From a virus, in the IMG/VR virus record IMGVR_UViG_3300030099_001480, positions 1-48,634 of that record: 48,634 nucleotides of DNA; one strand, written 5' to 3'. Positions 11,742-41,213 of this stretch are shown here, piece by piece. Numbering within the stretch: position 1 is the stretch's first letter; each line of letters opens with the position of its first letter. The notes beneath the pieces were generated by a model, which worked only from the letters and a program-made list of their open reading frames with translations, made no database searches and was not told the origin of the DNA. The translations under genes were made by a program, and so were the position numbers.

Positions 11742-14700
11742 ATGGCAATAGTGCAGGCAAAAGCGCCAAATTCGGGTAGGTACTACAACATAGAAATCGC
11801 CGGTACTACGCCTACCCCAGAAGAAAAAATAAAAATAGACGAATACATCGCTAGTGTTGATGGTCCCCCCACAGGAGAACTAATAGAAAGCGATGAGGGC
11901 CGAGGGTTTTTCGGCGCTCTTGGCGCTGGCGTGGATACAGTGCAGCTTTTATATGGTTCTACGGTAGAGGGAATAGGGAAAGATCTGGGCATAGATGCCA
12001 TTGAGGATATCGGCTCAGGCATCGTTGAAACAAACAGGCAACAGCTTCAGGAGTCTGGTGCAAACGCCACTAGGCTTGAAGATGTAAAGGATATTGGCTC
12101 TGGCCTTGACTTCTTTGTAGAGACCCTTGGCGAACAGCTTCCAAATCTTGCCACCACCGTAGCGGGCGGTATCGCTGGAAAGAAGGTAGGGGCTGCCATA
12201 GGAACTGCGGTTGCCCCCGGCGTTGGAACATTGATAGGCGGCGGGGTGGGTCTGGCTGTTGGTGGTTTGTCAGCCAATATACCCTTCTTCTTTGGAGGCA
12301 ATAGAGAGGCCCAAAGAGACGCAGATATAGCCGCTGGCAGACCTGTGGAAATTGACAACAGGGTTGCATTTTTAGCCTCTATACCACAGGCATCTCTTGA
12401 CCTCATAGCGGACTATTTTTTGGTTGGCAGGTTCCTCACCCCGAAAATGATCAGGGGCGGGGGCTTATTCAGTCGAGGAGTTAAGGGTGTGGGTGCCGGT
12501 GCGATAGCAGAGGTGCCGACAGAAATTGGTCAACAGATCATAGAAAGATATCAAGCTGGCCAAAGCATAACCAGTGAAGAGGCCTTGGAAGAATATCTAG
12601 AGGTTGGTGTAGCTGCGGGTCTCGTTGGCGGCACGGTGAAGGGAACTGTTGGCGTTGTTGGCGGCGACATCAAAAAGCAAGAAAAGGCAGAGGCTACAAG
12701 GCAGCTACAAGAAGATGCGATTGAGGAAGGTGGCAGAGCAGACGCCAGAATAAAGGCTGGTAAAGTTGGCTTTGATCTCCGTCAGCCAATAGAAGAAGAG
12801 GCAGAGCCAGAGGTTGTTGCTGAAGTATCTGACACTAATCTCACTGACGCGCAAAAGAACCTAAGCCTTGCCAACGCTGCCAAGCAGGCCACAAGGCCTT
12901 TCATACCAATGCCTTTGTCCTCTTTCCCGCCGGAGGCTGCTGATTACATCAGGCAGTCAAGGCAGGGGACATCTATCCCACTTGATGCAGATGTCACAAA
13001 GGAAGAGTTGGCCAAGGTCTTTAATCAAGATGTTGCCGATCTAGCCGAAAGAGTGCAGAAGCCAGATCTGGCTGCAAAGCCAGCATCCCCCATATTCTCT
13101 GTAAAGCAAAAAGAAGATGCCAAGAAAGAAATACAGAAAAGGGGCAAGGTCAATAAGGGTCAAATCAAGAGGGCTATAAAGACAGACTCCACTGAGGTTG
13201 TCGATGAAATCCTAAGAGATTTGGAGACTGACGGTGTTGTCAAGCACTTGGAGCGTGGAAGGTATGTCCTGCCCGAGGACAAGAGGCTTGACCCCCTATA
13301 CAAAGAAAAAGAGCAAAGGGACAAGGCAAGGGCTGAGATCACAAGGATAGAGGCCCTGAAGCAAGAGGCCATAAGGCTGAGAGACAAGGCTCTTGAGGAA
13401 AACAATCCTGTAGCAGCCGAGGCTCTGAATCGAGAGATTGAAAACATAGAGGCTACAGTTGAGCAGCCCAATACACTTCTTGCAGAGGCTGAGGACCGCA
13501 TCAGAGCCAAAGAAGATGCCGAGAAGGCTGCTGCTGATGAAAGGCTGGACAAGACAGAGCGGGAAGAAGCCGAAGAGGCGAGCAAGATCGCTATGCAGGC
13601 TGAGTCCGCAAGGTATCGCGACGAGTATCAGACTAAGCGCAAGAAGGTTGCTGCTAGGCTGAGGCAATACATGCGCGGTCTCGGCTTGGGAGATGTTGGA
13701 CTCAAGATAGATGATTACATAGAGCGCGAGGGCGGCCTCAAAGACCCCAACATTGAGGGTGTTTTTGACCCCAGCAAGAGATCAATCTCTCTGGCTATGT
13801 CGATATACGACCCATCGGTTACAGACGACGAGTTGTATGTCTCTCTTAGGAATGTTCTCAATCACGAGATCATACATGCCATCAAAGAGATTGGTCTCTT
13901 CACAGACGCCGAATACAAGACCCTAGTAAAGGCTGCCACCAACACAAAGTATGTTGCTATCAAGCAGGGCAAGGGCGAGAAGAGAGCGTACACATTCCTT
14001 GATCGCGCAATCATGCTCAATCCAAAAGATCAAAATCTCAGCGAGGCTGAGATGCAGGCCCTGTTGGAAGAAGAAGCGATTGCAGAGATGTTCCGCGCTT
14101 ATGCGGATGGACGCCTCAAGATAGTTGGCAAGCCGAAGAACCTCCTCGACAGGATAGTCAAGTTCTTCAAGGCTCTTGGCGGCGCTCACTTTGATGAGGG
14201 CTTTGACTCGGCGGCATCAATCTTTGAGAACATACAGACGCAGGACAAGACCAAGCAGCTAGGCACTAGAAAGCGTGGGCAGTTCACGCCACCAAAGAGC
14301 AAGGACTTCCTGTACTCAACCCAAAAAAGCACCATCGAACCCTTCAAGTCTACACCTGAGAGGGTCAAATCAAATGTTGCCAAGTCTCAGTTGGGTATTT
14401 CTCAGAAGCTGGCTCAAGCATCAGTCCTTCACAGGATTGATGAGAACAACAACTTCATCGACACAAGAGTGTTCAATGAAAAGGGCAAGGTGGTTGCACC
14501 ACGGGTGGCAACTTCACTGCGTATTTTGCAGGAAGAGAGGGGCAATATAACCCTCGATCCCCTAGACCCGAAAGACTTCAAGAAGATCGTCATGATCATG
14601 GCGGCAGAGGCAGAGGCTGCCCTGCGCGGTGATAAGAACGCTATCGGTTGGTACGAAGACAAAGTCGCAACCATGTTTGAGTTCATGGGCAAGATTGAGG

Positions 14701-17700
14701 GCGGCAACCAACAGATATTGAATGACCCAGAGGCTAGGGCTGCATTTACATTTGCCATGGCCGTCACATCAAACGGCTTGTCTGTAAATCAAAACTTTGT
14801 CAGCGCGATGGAGGAGTACAAGGTCTGGAAAGAGACCGGCCTCTTCAAGGCAGATGGATATGGAGACAAGGGTGCCGCAGCTATGCGGAAGGCCTTTAAG
14901 TTCTATAATACCTTGAAGAGTGATTTGAACATGACCGATGTTCAAATACAAAACTACCTCACCCAAGAGACCACGGTACGAGAGCTAAAAAAAGATCCAC
15001 TAATCCAAGAGTTGGGCATACAAGTCCCCAGCGGAGAGCTTCAAGACACAAAAGTTAGGGTTGCTCATGTTCTTGGGGCCAAGATAGGAAACGGCTTCTA
15101 CATGAACCTTAATGGTGAGTTTGATGCGCTCACCATGGACATGTGGTGGATGCGTATGTGGAACCGCATCATTGGCAAGCCATTCAAGCAGCCCACGGAT
15201 GAGACCAATAACAAGAATAGAAAGAGAATACAGGAATCTCTTGAAGGGGATCTGACAGAGTTTGAGCAGCGTCTTGTAGACGAGACCATGCTGGATGAGG
15301 GCCTTGATTCTGTTGAGGGACAGAATGTCGATCAGTTCGCCACAGCCCTGAACGCCAAATTCCAAAGGATATTCACAAGATTCGGTAAGGCAGAAGCTGA
15401 CAAGAGGCCAGAGAAAACACCTCTGTTCCAAGCGGCAGATACACATGCACAAAACCTAAGCGGCAAGTTTGAGCAGGCCACACCTAGAAACGGCACTGAG
15501 CGTGAGGTGATGAGGGCCGCAGCAGAAAGTTCTAGGGAACTTTTGAAAGAGAAGACTGGCATTGATATCAACAATGCCGATTTCCAAGCGCTTATGTGGT
15601 ATCATGAGAAAAGGCTACTGTCCTCTATGGGTACACAAAGTACAGGCGCTGATAACGATTACGTTGACGGCGCGATAGCATATGCAAGAAGAGAGGGATT
15701 CACGGATGACCAAATCGCAGAAGCACTTCCCCCAACAGACAGAGACAGAGTCTATCCTGACTCAGGTGCCAGACGACCGGATGAAGGAATTAGCAGAGAG
15801 TCTGCTGAGAACGATACCGCCGCAAACCTCAAGTACAGCGTCAGCCCAGCAAAAGCTGCGGCCATCGCCGTCAGGATTGGTGCAGGGGATAATGGACGAG
15901 TATGGCGTAGGAAGAGATCAAGCCGAGAAGTGGGCCAATATGATGTAGCTGCCGAGTACAAGGTAGCTCCATATGCGGCAAGGCTCTTCAATGAGCAGGG
16001 CGTAAAGACACCAGCCATATTTGAGTTGGCTCAAACAATGAGGTCGGCCCAACAGTTTGCTGAGGCGATTGACAGGGCCAAGATTGCTCAAGGGCCACTG
16101 GGATCTTCAGTTTATGTTTATCCTGTAGAAACTACAGCGGACGAGACAGGCTATGCCGACATGCGTCTGTTCCTCACAAGAGATGGCAAGGCTGGTTTTG
16201 CTTTGAAAGAGGGCGAGATTGACGGCCTTGTTGACATCGTCTCTGTATTCAACACGCCAGACGCTCACAAGGGCTTCTCATACCCCGCTATCAGGCTGGC
16301 GGTTGACGAGGGCGGCAACAAGCTAGACGCCTTTGACACCTTCCTGCCGGGTGCTTACAGCGCGAATGGCTTCACAATAAGATCTAGAACGGCTTGGAAC
16401 GATGAGTTCGCTCCAGAGGGATGGGACAAAGAAGAATATTCAGACTTCAACAATGGTGAGCCTGATGTCGTCTTTATGTACTACAACCCCAAGCGGAGGT
16501 TCACATACAAGAACGGCGATCAAGAAGGTGAGTTGTTCTTAGACTATGATGATGCGGTTGACGCCCAAAACGGTGCAGCCCTGAATCCATCTTCTGTAAA
16601 CCGTCAGCTAGACATCAATCGTGCCGAGACGATACAGCTTTTTGACAATGAAGAGGCCACCCTTGGTGAGATAACACCCGAACAGGAGCAAGATCTAAGG
16701 TCCATAATGGACATGATGGAGTCGCTTCCTAAATCAACAAGGAAGTTTTCTACTGCTCCGTCCAACGCTTTCGCCACGATAAATGCTCCCAAGAGATTCC
16801 CTAGGTTTGAGAAGTACAACTCTCTCTTTGGGATCATGAAGGAGAACAACAACCTGATCCCTGTCATGTTCTTCGCTGGCAACCACGGCGTGGACTCTTC
16901 TGGCAGGGCCTTCGGCTTTGGCAAGTATCACATTCAAGAACGCGGTCATGAGAAAGAGATCGTAGAGAACTCAAAGTTCCCTGACGTAGAAACTGCCGTG
17001 CAGCAGTTGATGTTTGCTTGGCACAAACAGGGTCACAAAGACGGCCCCAATGTTGTTTCTTTCCCCGATGGCGGTGGTGGCCCAGCAGTCAGTGACGCCT
17101 TCATACCTATGGGCAAAAGGGATTTGAGATTGGAGTGGTTGCGCCCGTCTCATAGCTCTCCAAAAATTGTGCTTTCCCTCCAGTACGGAAGGTTGCAAGA
17201 CCCCGAAGTTCTGTCACAGTTTGGCTTCAAGAACCCTATCGGCATTTATTCTGTAAGAACGACGTACCCAGACCTCAAATCAAAGAAGCTCAGTAGGTCG
17301 TTCTCACGGTCTACATTTGCCAATGTGGACACAGGGTCTACTAACTTTGTAGCCAACCATAACAACAATCACATTTCGTACTCTGCTGCCCATAACACCA
17401 TATCCAAAATTCTAGGATTGGGTGGTCTGGTAAGTGAGCAGAAGGCGAGGGACGTATCGCAGTCGTTCATCACTAAGTTCCAAGACACCTTCCTGCCAGT
17501 CGGTGTGATGATCGACAAGCTGAAGCAGCAGGGCATGACCATCACCGATGGCATGGATACATACCTGCAAGAGACGCTGTTCCACGGCAAGACAGGGGAC
17601 ATACTCAACTCCAAGCAGAAAGAGATGTATGAGCCTCTCGCAAGGCTTGTTAAGGATCTTGAGGTTTCTGACGCTGACTTCTCTAGGTTGACAGGCAGAG

Positions 17701-20261
17701 GCTTTAACAGTGACTTTGAAGGTGGCAACTATGCTGCCAAATCATTCAAAGAAACTGGCAGCAAGAGACTGGCGATAGTTGACGCCTATCTATACGCGCT
17801 TCATGCCAAGGAAAGAAACGCCTACATCAGATCGATCAACAACGATCTCGCCAACGGCTCTGGTATGACCGACGCCGAGGCAGACTACATTCTGTCTTGG
17901 GTTGCCTCGCTTGACTCAGGCAACAAGCAGATCATAGCTGACGTACAGCAGAGAGTGCGTCAGGTTGTTGATGATACAAATGCAATCAGGGTTGCATCTG
18001 GCCTCACCCCAGACTTCAACAGCAGTGAGCCTCTTGTTCTTGAGAGCGGGGAGATCGTACAGCCCCCGCAGTATGAGAATTATGTACCTCTCAGGGGCAT
18101 ATTCGACTCCGATGGTGAGGCAACAGAAGACGCTTCCTACACCAGCCCAGTTACCAGCCAAGGGTATTCTGTGCGCGGCAGGGAGGACAGACGAGCCTTG
18201 GGCCGCCAAGAGTATGCAACGAACATACTGGCAGCCACCTTCTTGCAAAACCAAAACGCTGTCATCAGGTCTGAGCGCAACAAGGTTGGCCTGTCGTTCT
18301 TGAACCTACTGCGCGGCGATGAGCGACTCACCAGCCAGTTCGCAGAAGAGTTGGAGAGCGTCCCCCTCACCAGAGGCTTGGTAAAGGGTGCCGTCAGAAC
18401 GATAGTAGACAGAAACGCTTTGAACGATCCCAACATCATCACCGTCAAAGAAGATGGAAAGCACGTTTACATACGGGTGAGAGATCAGAGGCTTGCCAAT
18501 GCCCTCAAGGGTGGCGCTGGTGTTTCTACCCAGACATCAAACGCTGTGGTCAGAGGCCTTGGAAAGATCAACAGATATCTTTCCAACATCAACACATCTC
18601 TGAACCCTGAGTTCATGATTACAAACATGATACGAGACGTTCAAACAGCTGGTGTGAATATCAACCAGTATGAGCAAAAGGGTCTTGTATCAGAAGTTAG
18701 ACGTAACTTTCTTGATGCTTTGAGTGCTGTAAAGCAGGTCGTCAGGGAAGACGCGAATATAGTTGATGACCCAAGCATACCTGTATCAGAACTAACAGGC
18801 GCGGCTCTTTTCAGAAGATTTCAGAGGGCTGGGGGCCAAAACGCCACAAACCAGATCAGCGACCTCAGTGATCAGGTTGCCAACATCAAGAAGCTGACAG
18901 ACGACATTGCGGAGCAGGGTCTGAAGGGTCAGTGGAACGCTGTAAAGAATAGCTTTGTTGGCAAGAAGACTGGCTCAATGTTGAAGTTCTTGGAGGACTA
19001 CAACACCGTTGTTGAGAATGGTGTCCGTGTAGCCACGTTTAAGGCATTAGCACCAAGAATTGGAGAGCAGAGAGCAGCCTTTGCCGCTCGTAATGTCACC
19101 GTGGATTTTGCCAAGGGCGGTGAATACAAGACCCTAATGAACTCCATGTACCTGTTCTACAACGCATCGCTGCAAGGCTCATTCGCCATGCTGAGTGCGG
19201 CAGCAAGGTCCAAGAAGGTTCGCAAGATATGGGTTGGCCTCATGGTGGCTGGCGTGTTGCAGGACCAGCTTCTGGCCTTCACCTCGGAGGAGGATGAAGA
19301 CGGTCAGCTTATGGCTGACAAAATCCCAGACTACATTCTGGAACACAACCTTGTGTTCAGAGATCCATTTGGCATTACGGAGCGGTCTCACATAGTCATA
19401 CCGATGCCATATGGTCTCAACATGGCGGTCAACATAGGTCGTTCTTTGAGCAGGGCGTCCAGAGGTGGGTACACGCCAGCAGAGGCAGCGGACTCAGCAA
19501 TGATGACCATGATCGACACTCTCAACCCGCTTGGCGGCACAGAGAGTTTCATTAATTTTGTTATGCCCACTGTCGTTGATCCTATCATCGATCTCTACGA
19601 GAACGAGGACTTTGCCAATAAGCCGATATACAAAGAGACATCACCATTCGATCCTACGCCTCCGCCAGACAGCCAACTCTACTGGTCAACCACATCCCCA
19701 TCAGCGAAGTGGATTGCCCAGTGGCTGAACAGCCTAGATGGATCGACAGTAGAGAAAGGCACTCTTGATGTGTCCCCAGATGTCATTGAGTTCTGGGTTG
19801 ACTATCTGACAGGTGGTATTGGCAGGTTCGTCCAGATGTCTGGTGACTTTGCATTTTCTACGCTGCCCAAAGCTGTAGAAGATGGCTTCACCGATGAGAT
19901 GATCCGGCAGGTGCCTTTCGGCAGGAAGGTTGTGTATTCGGTTTCTGAAAGAGAGGATTTGGGTTCTTTCATAGAGAAGAGAGATAGGGTTCTGCAAGCT
20001 AGAGAGGTTCTCACCGATGCTATAAGGCGGGGAGACGCAGATCTCATACAGAATACTAGGTCTAAGTACAAAGACGAACTGAGGATAGCTGGCATCATTA
20101 AGTCCATAAACAATGGACGCAATAGCCTTCTTCGCAGAATGGCTCAGATAAAAGACAACCCAAGAATACCAGAAGAGCAAAAGAAGAAGATAATAGAGAG
20201 AATGAGCAAGCAAGTAGACGCGCTCATTCTGAGGGGCAACATTGCCATGAAAACTTTATAG
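11742..20261 (+). CDS. Giant polyvalent ejected protein with zincin, GNAT-like, nuclease-like and LPD38-like regions (2839 aa)
   Basis: One uninterrupted frame of 2,839 residues. Gly-rich hydrophobic segments lie at about 140-185 and 285-307, followed by coiled coil at about 520-640. A zinc-metallopeptidase motif HEIIH is at 708-712, with an EEEAIAEMF helix near 777 as a possible third-ligand region. Residues about 1400-1590 resemble a GNAT-like domain (MRLFLTRDGKAGF, KLDAFDTFLPG, NGEPDVVFMYYNP). A segment near 1725 (FGFGKYHIQERG) resembles phage Barnase/EndoU-type nuclease domains. NTSLNPEFMITNMIRDVQTA (about 2285) matches the large-polyvalent-protein domain LPD38. Such proteins are packaged and injected with DNA to disarm host defences. 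Order and motifs are seen; activities are inferred. Confidence 0.7.
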   Translation: MAIVQAKAPNSGRYYNIEIAGTTPTPEEKIKIDEYIASVDGPPTGELIESDEGRGFFGALGAGVDTVQLLYGSTVEGIGKDLGIDAIEDIGSGIVETNRQQLQESGANATRLEDVKDIGSGLDFFVETLGEQLPNLATTVAGGIAGKKVGAAIGTAVAPGVGTLIGGGVGLAVGGLSANIPFFFGGNREAQRDADIAAGRPVEIDNRVAFLASIPQASLDLIADYFLVGRFLTPKMIRGGGLFSRGVKGVGAGAIAEVPTEIGQQIIERYQAGQSITSEEALEEYLEVGVAAGLVGGTVKGTVGVVGGDIKKQEKAEATRQLQEDAIEEGGRADARIKAGKVGFDLRQPIEEEAEPEVVAEVSDTNLTDAQKNLSLANAAKQATRPFIPMPLSSFPPEAADYIRQSRQGTSIPLDADVTKEELAKVFNQDVADLAERVQKPDLAAKPASPIFSVKQKEDAKKEIQKRGKVNKGQIKRAIKTDSTEVVDEILRDLETDGVVKHLERGRYVLPEDKRLDPLYKEKEQRDKARAEITRIEALKQEAIRLRDKALEENNPVAAEALNREIENIEATVEQPNTLLAEAEDRIRAKEDAEKAAADERLDKTEREEAEEASKIAMQAESARYRDEYQTKRKKVAARLRQYMRGLGLGDVGLKIDDYIEREGGLKDPNIEGVFDPSKRSISLAMSIYDPSVTDDELYVSLRNVLNHEIIHAIKEIGLFTDAEYKTLVKAATNTKYVAIKQGKGEKRAYTFLDRAIMLNPKDQNLSEAEMQALLEEEAIAEMFRAYADGRLKIVGKPKNLLDRIVKFFKALGGAHFDEGFDSAASIFENIQTQDKTKQLGTRKRGQFTPPKSKDFLYSTQKSTIEPFKSTPERVKSNVAKSQLGISQKLAQASVLHRIDENNNFIDTRVFNEKGKVVAPRVATSLRILQEERGNITLDPLDPKDFKKIVMIMAAEAEAALRGDKNAIGWYEDKVATMFEFMGKIEGGNQQILNDPEARAAFTFAMAVTSNGLSVNQNFVSAMEEYKVWKETGLFKADGYGDKGAAAMRKAFKFYNTLKSDLNMTDVQIQNYLTQETTVRELKKDPLIQELGIQVPSGELQDTKVRVAHVLGAKIGNGFYMNLNGEFDALTMDMWWMRMWNRIIGKPFKQPTDETNNKNRKRIQESLEGDLTEFEQRLVDETMLDEGLDSVEGQNVDQFATALNAKFQRIFTRFGKAEADKRPEKTPLFQAADTHAQNLSGKFEQATPRNGTEREVMRAAAESSRELLKEKTGIDINNADFQALMWYHEKRLLSSMGTQSTGADNDYVDGAIAYARREGFTDDQIAEALPPTDRDRVYPDSGARRPDEGISRESAENDTAANLKYSVSPAKAAAIAVRIGAGDNGRVWRRKRSSREVGQYDVAAEYKVAPYAARLFNEQGVKTPAIFELAQTMRSAQQFAEAIDRAKIAQGPLGSSVYVYPVETTADETGYADMRLFLTRDGKAGFALKEGEIDGLVDIVSVFNTPDAHKGFSYPAIRLAVDEGGNKLDAFDTFLPGAYSANGFTIRSRTAWNDEFAPEGWDKEEYSDFNNGEPDVVFMYYNPKRRFTYKNGDQEGELFLDYDDAVDAQNGAALNPSSVNRQLDINRAETIQLFDNEEATLGEITPEQEQDLRSIMDMMESLPKSTRKFSTAPSNAFATINAPKRFPRFEKYNSLFGIMKENNNLIPVMFFAGNHGVDSSGRAFGFGKYHIQERGHEKEIVENSKFPDVETAVQQLMFAWHKQGHKDGPNVVSFPDGGGGPAVSDAFIPMGKRDLRLEWLRPSHSSPKIVLSLQYGRLQDPEVLSQFGFKNPIGIYSVRTTYPDLKSKKLSRSFSRSTFANVDTGSTNFVANHNNNHISYSAAHNTISKILGLGGLVSEQKARDVSQSFITKFQDTFLPVGVMIDKLKQQGMTITDGMDTYLQETLFHGKTGDILNSKQKEMYEPLARLVKDLEVSDADFSRLTGRGFNSDFEGGNYAAKSFKETGSKRLAIVDAYLYALHAKERNAYIRSINNDLANGSGMTDAEADYILSWVASLDSGNKQIIADVQQRVRQVVDDTNAIRVASGLTPDFNSSEPLVLESGEIVQPPQYENYVPLRGIFDSDGEATEDASYTSPVTSQGYSVRGREDRRALGRQEYATNILAATFLQNQNAVIRSERNKVGLSFLNLLRGDERLTSQFAEELESVPLTRGLVKGAVRTIVDRNALNDPNIITVKEDGKHVYIRVRDQRLANALKGGAGVSTQTSNAVVRGLGKINRYLSNINTSLNPEFMITNMIRDVQTAGVNINQYEQKGLVSEVRRNFLDALSAVKQVVREDANIVDDPSIPVSELTGAALFRRFQRAGGQNATNQISDLSDQVANIKKLTDDIAEQGLKGQWNAVKNSFVGKKTGSMLKFLEDYNTVVENGVRVATFKALAPRIGEQRAAFAARNVTVDFAKGGEYKTLMNSMYLFYNASLQGSFAMLSAAARSKKVRKIWVGLMVAGVLQDQLLAFTSEEDEDGQLMADKIPDYILEHNLVFRDPFGITERSHIVIPMPYGLNMAVNIGRSLSRASRGGYTPAEAADSAMMTMIDTLNPLGGTESFINFVMPTVVDPIIDLYENEDFANKPIYKETSPFDPTPPPDSQLYWSTTSPSAKWIAQWLNSLDGSTVEKGTLDVSPDVIEFWVDYLTGGIGRFVQMSGDFAFSTLPKAVEDGFTDEMIRQVPFGRKVVYSVSEREDLGSFIEKRDRVLQAREVLTDAIRRGDADLIQNTRSKYKDELRIAGIIKSINNGRNSLLRRMAQIKDNPRIPEEQKKKIIERMSKQVDALILRGNIAMKTL

Positions 20262-20282
20262 CCCCCCAAAAGAGGGGGGCTA
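20259..20282. terminator. Bidirectional terminator between convergent genes
   Basis: TAGCCCCCC and GGGGGGCTA form a 9-bp stem around AAAAGA. It starts at the stop codon of the giant gene. The leftward gene 20298-20804 ends just beyond, so it separates two converging transcripts. T tracts are weak on both sides. Confidence 0.75.
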
Positions 20283-20300
20283 AAGTTATAGGTAACTTTA
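20281..20300. repeat. Palindromic repeat, copy 2 (TAAAGTTA-TAGG-TAACTTTA)
   Basis: An 8-bp inverted repeat around TAGG, directly after the GC hairpin and overlapping the stop codon of the leftward gene. It has the same family consensus as the copy at 5944. Confidence 0.85.
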
Positions 20301-20804
20301 CGCTGCTTCTTCTTTCTCGTCCCGAAGCATACGCACCATGTCTTCAATGGGCGTCATATCAAGACCGATGTTCTCGGCAGATCCACGATACCGATTGAGC
20401 CACGCGGCAAGCTGAACACCAGCCTGACGACGCAACTCAGCCTGAGCCTCTTCATTGCTAGGATCGAAAGGCTCATAGCCGCCACCATCCTTACGCCCCT
20501 TCACAGGAGAGATGTAGGCAGGATACTCAGTTACCTTGACTGATGTGACACCGCTCTCAATGACCTCAGTCTTTGCAACGATGCGAAGACCGCTGGCCAT
20601 ATCACGAGCCATGTCGATACGATACTGACGAGCAGCATGTTCATCAGTCATCCCATAGAAAGCCGCATAGGCCTCATGGTCAGGCTGATCAGCAAGCCAA
20701 TCTACAAACTCATCAGCCCGAAATGTATTCAGTCCAGTGGATGCAAGATATTCATCAATGATCCGCTGCTTAGTGTCTTTTGAAAAGCGTACTGACTTCT
20801 TCAT
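20298..20804 (-). CDS. Conserved phage protein of unknown function (168 aa)
   Basis: A hydrophilic, probably cytoplasmic protein. It starts basic (MKKSVRFSKDTKQRIIDEYL), has a helical ADEFVDWLADQPDHEAY segment and then RQYRIDMARDMASGLRI. It ends in a helical acidic tail (MLRDEKEEAA). I have the impression of a hypothetical family in alphaproteobacterial phages but can assign no function. It has a GGGAG site about 8 bases before the ATG. It is the last gene of the leftward block and follows the periodic GG array, so its mRNA may carry that array as a 5' leader. Confidence 0.75.
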   Translation of the reverse strand: MKKSVRFSKDTKQRIIDEYLASTGLNTFRADEFVDWLADQPDHEAYAAFYGMTDEHAARQYRIDMARDMASGLRIVAKTEVIESGVTSVKVTEYPAYISPVKGRKDGGGYEPFDPSNEEAQAELRRQAGVQLAAWLNRYRGSAENIGLDMTPIEDMVRMLRDEKEEAA

Positions 20805-21221
20805 TTTATTCTCCCTTAGTACAAAGATTTTTGACCGCCTTGGCTGGCCCCATCAGAACACGCCTTGCCCTTACACACGACGCCTCAACTAGACCGCCTC
20901 GCCTCGCCAAAACTGACCGACCAGACCTAACGTCACCCAACCTTAACTCAACCGCCATGACCCACCAAGCCACACCTTTCCGTACCCCGACGCATCAGAC
21001 CAAGACCGCCTTGCCCAAACTTGCCCAGTCGAACCTTACGAGACCCAACCGAACCGCAACATACCAGAACCGCCACACCTAGAGACGCCTAGCCCTACCA
21101 GCCCTGACCATACCGAGACCGCCTAAACCGGCCATGCCTCGCCCTCCTCACCGGAACTCACCTCAACGGACCTCAACCGCCTCGCCATACCAGTCCTAAA
21201 CATATCTAACCGCGACCAGTG
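20805..21221 (-). repeat. Non-coding array with ~5-nt GG periodicity (CC on the plus strand)
   Basis: About 360 bases (20838-21196) are extremely G-poor and CC-rich on the plus strand, so the leftward transcript would read GG-N3-GG-N3. By hand count, CC dinucleotides keep a strict 5-base register in blocks. The register slips only by -1 between blocks, giving phases mod 5 of 3,2,1,0,4,3,2,1,0. Between 21006 and 21065 almost every pentamer is NNNCC. There is no credible reading frame on either strand, because a 5-base period cannot be codon-based. It lies between the genes at 21267 and 20804. Adjacent 2-tier G-quadruplexes or an RNA- or DNA-binding protein array are possible. Confidence 0.85.
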
Positions 21222-21245
21222 AGAGGGGCGAATATCGCCCCCCTC
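21222..21245. terminator. GC hairpin at the edge of the GG array
   Basis: AGAGGGGCGA pairs with TCGCC(CC)CCTCT around ATA, with two extra C on one side. On the plus strand it is followed by ATTTTG; on the minus strand no T tract follows. It could therefore be a leaky terminator or a processing site between the 253-aa gene and the array. Confidence 0.55.
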
Positions 21246-21252
21246 TATTTTG

Positions 21253-21268
21253 AAAGTTACAGGTAACT
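21253..21268. repeat. Palindromic repeat, copy 3 (AAAGTTAC-AG-GTAACT)
   Basis: The copy overlaps the stop codon of the leftward 253-aa gene and lies next to a GC hairpin, the same hairpin-palindrome pairing as at 20259-20300. Confidence 0.85.
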
Positions 21269-22028
21269 AAGCAGCCCGACGAAGGCGCTCTTCCTGCAAA
21301 TACTGCATGAGTTCCGCCGTCTGCTCATCTGCACAGATCGGCTGCTCCATGGCCAGCTTCTGGACCTCACGGTCCTCTTTGGTGATCTCGTCCCAGATTT
21401 CCTGATAGTCACCCATGTCCTCAGCACCAGAGACTGCGAAGGTGCCGTAAGAGCCACGGCCCTTCTCCTGACGGAAGTCACCGATGCCGACGATAGTGCC
21501 AGCGTTGGAAAGAAGGGAGACAATGGAGTGTGCGCTCAAAGTCGGAACGACATACTTCACAGTCACCTCTGCACACCACTGGGGGAGATATGCACGAGTA
21601 CGCACATCAGGCGTCTTGTTCATATCGGCAGAGCGTACAATATCCATCTTCAGCAATGGCTTGCCCCAGATCTGAATGTGACTTTCGGGAAGAAAGATCA
21701 GACGCTGAACGCTGGTCTTAGTGATGCCGCCAGTCTCAAGCGCGGCAGTAGCCATGGCACCCTTTACACCAGCAGCAGGGAAGCAAAGGTAAGTATCCCC
21801 AGTATCTTTCTTGTAGACACTGTCACGAAACTCAGCTTCTGGGTTGTGCTTGATGTCCTTCTTCTGAGCAGCAGTCTTCTTGCCGCCACCAACCAGAAGA
21901 TCACGCCATGCCTTAGCACCCATAGAGTTGAAATACATTGGCGTCTGGCCAATCATACGCAACTTGATATGTCCCTGCTTTAATGCGTGGATTTCCATAG
22001 TCTCAGTGGTCTTTTTCGATACAGCCAT
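21267..22028 (-). CDS. Phage early protein, possible RAMP/Cas7-like RNA-binding fold (253 aa)
   Basis: The layout is: a strand KLRMIGQTPMYFNS (about 21-35), then YLCFPAAGVKGAMATAALETGG (about 80-102), a KPLLKMDIVR strand, RTRAYLPQWCAEV, and a Gly-rich end GIGDFRQEKGRGSYGTF (about 204-220). In RAMP proteins (Cas7, Cmr4) a 'P-x-S-x-(I/L)KG' helix start and a Gly-rich RNA-contacting loop occur in comparable places. A similar family is widespread in phages without known role. The fold call is an inference from motifs only. The gene is promoter-proximal (TTGACA at 22087-22092), with an AAAGGAGG site before the ATG, and the GG-periodic array follows it directly. Confidence 0.55.
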   Translation of the reverse strand: MAVSKKTTETMEIHALKQGHIKLRMIGQTPMYFNSMGAKAWRDLLVGGGKKTAAQKKDIKHNPEAEFRDSVYKKDTGDTYLCFPAAGVKGAMATAALETGGITKTSVQRLIFLPESHIQIWGKPLLKMDIVRSADMNKTPDVRTRAYLPQWCAEVTVKYVVPTLSAHSIVSLLSNAGTIVGIGDFRQEKGRGSYGTFAVSGAEDMGDYQEIWDEITKEDREVQKLAMEQPICADEQTAELMQYLQEERLRRAA

Positions 22029-35494: not shown

Positions 35495-35510
35495 AAGTTC
35501 CCTGTAACTT
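35495..35510. repeat. Palindromic repeat, copy 11 (AAGTTCC-CT-GTAACTT)
   Basis: It overlaps the stop codon of the leftward 225-aa gene and is followed in leftward direction by T5-A5-T6, so it may also work as a weak terminator. Confidence 0.8.
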
Positions 35511-36186
35511 ACTCATCCTCTGCATAGAGGTTATTGAAGATCTGAGTTGTGTCTAAGGTGTAGTCCAGATCTGACTTTGAGTAGTGGATATGCTGTGATG
35601 GTAGGAAGTCTGGTGCGCCTTCACCTGTTTCAAACCACGCTGGGTGTGTGACTCTCACGCGGTTGTTGGGAAGTGCTATGATGTTTCCTGTCCATTCTCC
35701 TGCGTCTAGAAGCTCCATGACGTGGCTCTGCTTGTGCTGTGCGGGGTCATCTGCAATCTCACTGTCAGTGTAGTCCACTGTGAATAGATACTTTGCGGGA
35801 TAGAACTCACTATCCACTTTTGCCAACCACGGACAAGGTGTTGCCCGGTTCAGTGTGTAGACGGAGTGGGTATGTGACATGCAATCCCATGGCTGGGCGT
35901 AGTGGACCGGCATCGGTTCTGGCCAATCCTCAAAGGCTGTATCCCCCACTAAAGCCGTGATGGGCATTCTGGCCCACATGGCCCCACCATGCACATTCGG
36001 CTCGTCTTCATCGTCCGATTCACATCCTGTGAATATCACCTGAAAACTCAAACACCGATTAGGCATTGTAGTCACTGCAATACACATCGCATGCAGAAAC
36101 TCACCATGATACCTCATGTGATTACATGTGTACTCACGTCTAACCCAGCATTTGAAATGATTTATGTTACTCTGTAAGAAAGGCAT
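35509..36186 (-). CDS. Conserved marine-phage protein of unknown function (225 aa)
   Basis: I recognise the pattern FLQSNINHFKCWVRREY, then HGGAMWARMPITALVGD, QPWDCMSHTHSVYTLNR and ADDPAQHKQSHVMELLD as one present in many marine phages without a known role. It is soluble and rich in His, Trp and Cys. It lies alone in leftward orientation between the terminase subunit genes, with header CTTGGGAGATAGAT before the ATG. It is convergent with the small terminase gene. Confidence 0.75.
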   Translation of the reverse strand: MPFLQSNINHFKCWVRREYTCNHMRYHGEFLHAMCIAVTTMPNRCLSFQVIFTGCESDDEDEPNVHGGAMWARMPITALVGDTAFEDWPEPMPVHYAQPWDCMSHTHSVYTLNRATPCPWLAKVDSEFYPAKYLFTVDYTDSEIADDPAQHKQSHVMELLDAGEWTGNIIALPNNRVRVTHPAWFETGEGAPDFLPSQHIHYSKSDLDYTLDTTQIFNNLYAEDE

Positions 36187-36203: not shown

Positions 36204-36266
36204 CTTAATTAATACATTATAATACATTAGTCATATCTATTAAAATATATATATATTATAATATAA
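36204..36266 (+). promoter_or_regulatory. AT-rich island with tandem 10-mer and -10 box
   Basis: TAATACATTA occurs twice in tandem (36210-36229). TATTAAAATATATA (36238-36251) matches the island at 25496. TATAAT is at 36257-36262, about 30 bases before the AT-hook ATG. It is likely a promoter with an UP-like element and a natural target for the AT-hook protein. Confidence 0.55.
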
Positions 36267-40844: not shown

Positions 40845-41213
40845 ATGTATTCTGCAACAAAAGAAGTCGATCAGAAGGTCGCAACTAAAATACCAGAGCC
40901 TACGGGCTACAAACTCTTGATAAAGCCTTTAGAGGTTAAAGAGAAAACGGATAGCGGCGTTTTTATGCCGGATTCCCTCAAATCAGCAGAACAAACAGCT
41001 TCAGTCATTGGCTTTGTGGTCAAGGCTGGACCTGATGCGTATATGGACAGAGACAAGTTTCCTAATGGCCCTTATTGCAAAGAAGGGGACTTTGTCATCT
41101 TCAGATCGTATTCAGGTACACGTTTCAAGATTGATAAGCAGGAATTTCGTTTGATCAACGACGACACAGTAGAGGCTGTTGTCGAAGACCCAAGAGGATA
41201 CACAAGAGCATGA
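40845..41213 (+). CDS. GroES-like co-chaperonin (122 aa)
   Basis: GYKLLIKPLEVKEKTDSGVFMPDSLKSAEQTASVIGFVVKAG, split as strand, mobile-loop region and strand, followed by GDFVIFRSYSGTRFKIDKQEFRLINDDTVEAVV, reproduces the order of the GroES fold (conserved start, mobile loop, GD-V-F segment, dipped C-terminal strand). Phage GroES homologues replace the host cap on GroEL to fold capsid proteins. It lies just before scaffold and capsid genes, which supports that role. It overlaps the scaffold gene by 4 bases. Confidence 0.85.
   Translation: MYSATKEVDQKVATKIPEPTGYKLLIKPLEVKEKTDSGVFMPDSLKSAEQTASVIGFVVKAGPDAYMDRDKFPNGPYCKEGDFVIFRSYSGTRFKIDKQEFRLINDDTVEAVVEDPRGYTRA

Follow-up and report, generated by a model that had tools for sequence, protein, structure and literature searches.

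The 48,634-base viral stretch analyzed here (IMG/VR virus record IMGVR_UViG_3300030099_001480, hereafter the window) carries on its minus strand a gene for a 253-residue RAMP/Cas7-like protein, followed by a hairpin, a periodic array and a gene for a 168-residue protein. This locus is very probably a Viral Interference Programmable Repeat (VIPR) system, because the protein fold, the co-occurrence of gene and array, the GGY/NN composition of the array and the decoded targets fit the description in a 2026 preprint (PMC13142463). As described there, VIPR comprises a Vipr protein, vap genes and vrRNAs in which GGY and NN alternate; the vrRNAs are used between phages and recognize double-stranded DNA through NN, passing over one target base after each dinucleotide. 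No other paper was found in a literature search on VIPR, and a search for phage RAMP genes associated with tandem repeats returned nothing relevant. The first-pass annotation of this DNA had linked the protein and the array as a candidate ribonucleoprotein system; its observation was confirmed, and its inference proved essentially right. With the present assignment, VIPR would also take in a large environmental phage clade, which has relatives in actinophages and on Rhodobacterales plasmids, and the natural targets of this separate clade lend independent support to the gapped code.

Based on the structural and profile searches, the 253-residue protein (21267-22028, minus strand) resembles Vipr. 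The PAAGVKG segment begins at residue 84 of this open reading frame and the glycine-rich loop GIGDFRQEKGRGSYG (GIGDFRQEKGRG) lies at residue 181, both features having been annotated earlier. An AlphaFold2 model of the protein was built on 26 relatives (pLDDT 78.8, pTM 0.75). Csm3 was the top Foldseek match in the PDB (E 6.9e-6), and CRISPR Csm3/Cas7 complexes headed the 61 matches with E <= 0.001. In VIA-align, Csm3 superposed with a Z score of 10.1 and a root-mean-square deviation of 3.5 over 153 residues. The modeled structure thus supports a RAMP/Cas7 fold, with Csm3 as the closest solved fold, and the structure check suggested with the earlier claim of a Cas7-like protein recovered this fold and not an unrelated one. 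Moreover, a profile search of PDB sequences gave a single significant match, chain 36pp_D, which is Vipr of phage SUSP1 (E 3.7e-4), and judged by this profile the two proteins are distantly related. The fold, the profile match and the glycine loop agree with the definition of Vipr as a single RAMP protein, which lists an RRM core, a thumb and a G-loop. Searches of Pfam, NCBIfam and PADLOC with the 253- and 168-residue proteins gave nothing above cut-off, and PADLOC gave no match at all.

The array spans approximately 20833-21220 and, read on the minus strand, repeats the unit G-[G/T]-Y-N-N with a period of 5. Its best-phase G..Y score is 0.71, compared with a mean of 0.37 (standard deviation 0.03, maximum 0.46) over 500 dinucleotide shuffles. 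On neither strand does any other 300-nt part of the window score above 0.41. The periodicity reported downstream of the gene was therefore reproduced. Beyond what had been annotated, seven copies of GGCGGTY divide the array into six modules of 49-64 nt each. The array opens with a leader of 5-nt-type repeats (21182-21220), near-identical in several relatives, which is followed by M1 (58 nt, 21124-21181), M2 (49 nt, 21075-21123), M3 (64 nt with 12 NN, 21011-21074), M4 (54 nt with 10 NN, 20957-21010), M5 (58 nt, 20899-20956) and M6 (59 nt with 11 NN, 20840-20898); M1 and M5 each contain one internal 1-nt register slip. A terminal delimiter, GGCGGTC, occupies 20833-20839. Between the vipr gene and the array lies a strong hairpin (21221-21245, minus strand; -21.8 kcal/mol, z -5.0), and relatives also show G+C-rich inverted repeats at this position. 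The first reading had placed a leaky hairpin and a palindrome between gene and array; one strong hairpin was found there, and the terminator-like match at that place is on the plus strand. It is plausible that vipr and the array form a single transcription unit. An Rfam search of 20200-21400 returned one sub-threshold match to a nematode snoRNA, which was taken as chance, and the array had no blastn match among phage records.

The link between protein and array, which the first reading had advanced as an inference, is supported by co-occurrence. A scan of viral contigs yielded 234 relatives of the 253-residue protein, and the co-occurrence counts use the best 80 of the 234. Two of these loci end too soon after the gene, and an array directly follows the gene in all 78 testable relatives (lowest score 0.76). 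None of 157 control loci, made up of 80 terminase loci and 77 target loci, reached 0.60; five fell at 0.56-0.57, the best at 0.57. In addition, nine further homologues from actinophages, four plasmids and two metagenome-assembled genomes carry a nearby array. Those with approximately 28-40% identity come from Gordonia phages UmaThurman and Ecliptus, Mycobacterium phage Brocalys, Rhodoplanes and Nostoc plasmids and two metagenome-assembled genomes, while closer homologues are found on Sulfitobacter and Paracoccus plasmids. Their array sometimes lies upstream of the gene or after the small gene, and the weakest (in L166) scores 0.64-0.65. The annotated coding sequence of gene 40 in UmaThurman (L081:5625-5948) is the GGY/NN array read as an open reading frame and is probably a spurious annotation. 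The array beside the Nostoc plasmid homologue (L247:3230-3364) is of the GTY rather than the GGY type.

The grammar of the repeat was examined in 219 clean modules, which hold 8-14 NN and measure 44-74 nt. Position 1 is G in 96%, position 2 is G in 68% and T in 26% (94% together), position 3 is Y in 96%, and positions 4-5 are mixed. Among 87 pairs of homologous modules, position 1 varies least; changes at position 3 are mostly between C and T, and they are not rarer than changes at positions 4-5. The array reads as a guide code in which NN is read and GGY is not, aimed at DNA, most likely that of other phages. The earlier description of a regularly spaced RNA accordingly held for the regularity of the array, but the array appears to be a guide code and not only a scaffold.

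Support for such a code comes from decoding guides to natural targets. Guides were written as NNxNNx, with a 1-nt skip, and matched against IMG/VR viral contigs. The 18-base core of M3 matched 25 contigs, and 24 of the 25 matches lie antisense in genes carrying the tyrosine-integrase motif HD[LF]RHEA; the base that is passed over falls at the wobble position of the codon. The best match, in L176, covers 23 of 24 bases, and the target gene in L167 belongs to the Pfam family Phage_integrase. When the same bases were respaced with a 2-nt skip, no match was found. Similarly, M4 had two matches, both at 20/20 NN bases (including two bases outside the search pattern) and both antisense in queC, with the skip again on wobble positions; the target gene in L242 matches Pfam QueC. 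For a module common to several relatives, all 47 matches were complete at 20/20 and fell where a BppU_N-like phage protein begins, 45 of them in the antisense wobble phase. Another module matched at 18/18 in genes of L199 and L210 that we provisionally call tail-fibre-like. It was another guide that had brought in these two phage contigs, so L199 and L210 carry sites for two unrelated guide families, one in the BppU_N-like gene and one in the tail-fibre-like gene. The delimiter bases are not read: none of the 47 and none of the 25 targets has GG after the stretch matched by the guide.

Two candidate assignments were rejected. M6 was considered as an integrase guide (EVVSKVLGH), prompted by one of its three matches, and was dropped after the shifted pattern gave 0 matches. 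Self-targeting was dropped as well, the scored guides matching the window no better than shuffled guides (best M3 with 9/24 and best M4 with 6/20 mismatches).

Six of 298 distinct modules, in 9 of the 83 loci with modules, spell antisense HDLRHE, compared with 0.0 for order shuffles. These modules partly descend from one another and are thus not six inventions. Their Arg and Leu codon differences suggest editing that follows codon choice. There are roughly even chances, in our estimate, that the guides are broad-spectrum, spelling codons of near-universal motifs (integrase HD[LF]RHEA, QueC) such that one guide covers many rivals; on this proposal they would be inherited, shuffled between phages as GGCGGTY cassettes and edited at NN to alternative codons (CT/CG for the catalytic Arg, AA/AG for Leu), with no spacer capture.

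By analogy with the preprint's system, a mechanism can be proposed in which the 253-residue protein and the array RNA would act as a ribonucleoprotein. Vipr may coat a guide RNA from the array, each G-[G/T]-Y-N-N unit being taken by one subunit that holds GGY and leaves NN free. These dinucleotides would pair with a competing phage's double-stranded DNA, with one target base passed over behind each of them, and the bound complex would keep the target gene from being transcribed. A guide in this clade would begin right behind one GGCGGTY and run to the following one. M3 would be aimed at the integrase genes of other temperate phages, through the conserved catalytic motif, and M4 at queC; the phage would presumably benefit from both. 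The decoded integrase and queC guides make it testable whether phages employ guide RNAs to prevent integration or DNA modification by rivals.

Several points weigh against this assignment. A single-sequence comparison of the protein with Vipr gave a weak match (E 0.099), and what this member does in RNA processing, RNA binding and silencing is inferred from other members described in the preprint, in which Vipr co-purifies with vrRNAs and for which the experiments concerned Escherichia phage SUSP1 and a Pseudomonas fulva prophage (PMC13142463). Of the six guides of the window, the scans of the collection covered M3, M4 and M6; M6 gave three matches, which is approximately the chance level. The M3 matches falter at the ends, with agreement in 5 of 25 at NN1, 2 of 25 at NN11 and 20 of 25 at NN12, so the exact present-day target of M3 was not found. 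Furthermore, when targets were sought locally, in the flanks of VIPR and terminase loci, no signal appeared at skips of 0-4. One skip comparison was biased, its database containing loci fetched by 1-nt-skip patterns; after the loci fetched with each module's own pattern were removed, local matches at <=2 mismatches were no commoner than for shuffles, with the exception of one module family (18/18) at 0 mismatches.

Alternatively, the locus could encode a RAMP ribonucleoprotein, of the CRISPR type or another, whose pairing with RNA or DNA is contiguous as in class 1 systems; the Csm3/Cas7 fold would speak for this. However, the natural targets match NN with a 1-nt skip and not an unbroken stretch, PADLOC and NCBIfam returned nothing above cut-off, as stated earlier, and, in line with the first-pass annotation, the window holds no CRISPR-type tandem repeats and neither the 253- nor the 168-residue protein matches a Cas family. 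We regard this alternative as very improbable. The intergenic position of the array, with replication and recombination genes close by, would suit a DNA element such as an origin, a packaging site or a protein-binding site that neighbors the gene incidentally. Two guides nevertheless decode to specific gene families far above controls, and array and gene are kept together at approximately 30% protein identity and in different orders, which leaves this explanation with hardly any probability. A VIPR-type regulator of host or own phage genes, rather than a weapon against phages, is unlikely but deserves more weight. The queC gene can be a host gene, and the conserved motif that was decoded might be common to host genes. 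On the other hand, the scored guides and segments fit the window no better than shuffled ones, and the targets in integrase, BppU_N-like and tail-fibre-like genes sit on viral contigs, to which the scans were confined.

Compared with VIPR as described (PMC13142463), the present system likewise combines a RAMP protein, a candidate accessory gene and an alternating GGY/NN array, and it likewise shows a 1-nt skip code, a skip on the codon wobble and guides against other mobile elements. In the preprint, guides have 9-16 repeats and architectures vary between types. Here, guides have 8-14 NN, which lie within that range save for the 8-NN modules (40 of 219) just below it; they form one compact array, GTY often stands in place of GGY, and the guides decode to integrase, queC and virion genes. 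Each vrRNA described there has an invariable structured 3' tail; the modules here have in common only the 7-nt GGCGGTY, and no separate tail was recognized. The staggered arrays of overlapping vrRNAs mentioned in the preprint may correspond to the GGCGGTY layout. What this locus adds to VIPR is thus the choice of targets and the GGCGGTY-delimited layout. The RAMP fold is shared with class 1 CRISPR Csm3/Cas7 (types III and VII), the nearest solved structures, whereas the guide period is 5 nt here and 6 nt there (the latter figure from PMC13142463), and the reading is gapped here.

The 168-residue open reading frame (20298-20804, minus strand) was not part of the earlier description and appears from its homologues to be a third conserved component and a candidate vap gene. 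A homologue was detected by tblastn in 70 of the 80 relative loci, of which the other ten may include truncated ones, and in four of the further distant or plasmid loci. It is conserved beside vipr, with no assignment to one of the named vap1-6; the fold comparison was weak, with no match at E <= 0.001 and a best VIA-align Z score of 4.1.

TIGR-Tas also consists of phage-encoded short-guide arrays, with what we take to be a different protein family and array grammar.

Elsewhere, the window encodes terminase, portal, head, primase-helicase and Sak-type annealing proteins. A neighboring exonuclease gene has a secondary match to a PHROG labelled CRISPR/Cas system associated. The region 11742-20261 is one open reading frame of 2,839 residues, with PHROG matches mostly of unknown function. 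A GroES-like co-chaperonin gene (40845-41213) lies among the head genes, and a ferredoxin-like auxiliary gene, identified by PHROG, occupies 35509-36186. Short A+T-rich tandem repeats (36210-36265) are located just upstream of the terminase large subunit region.
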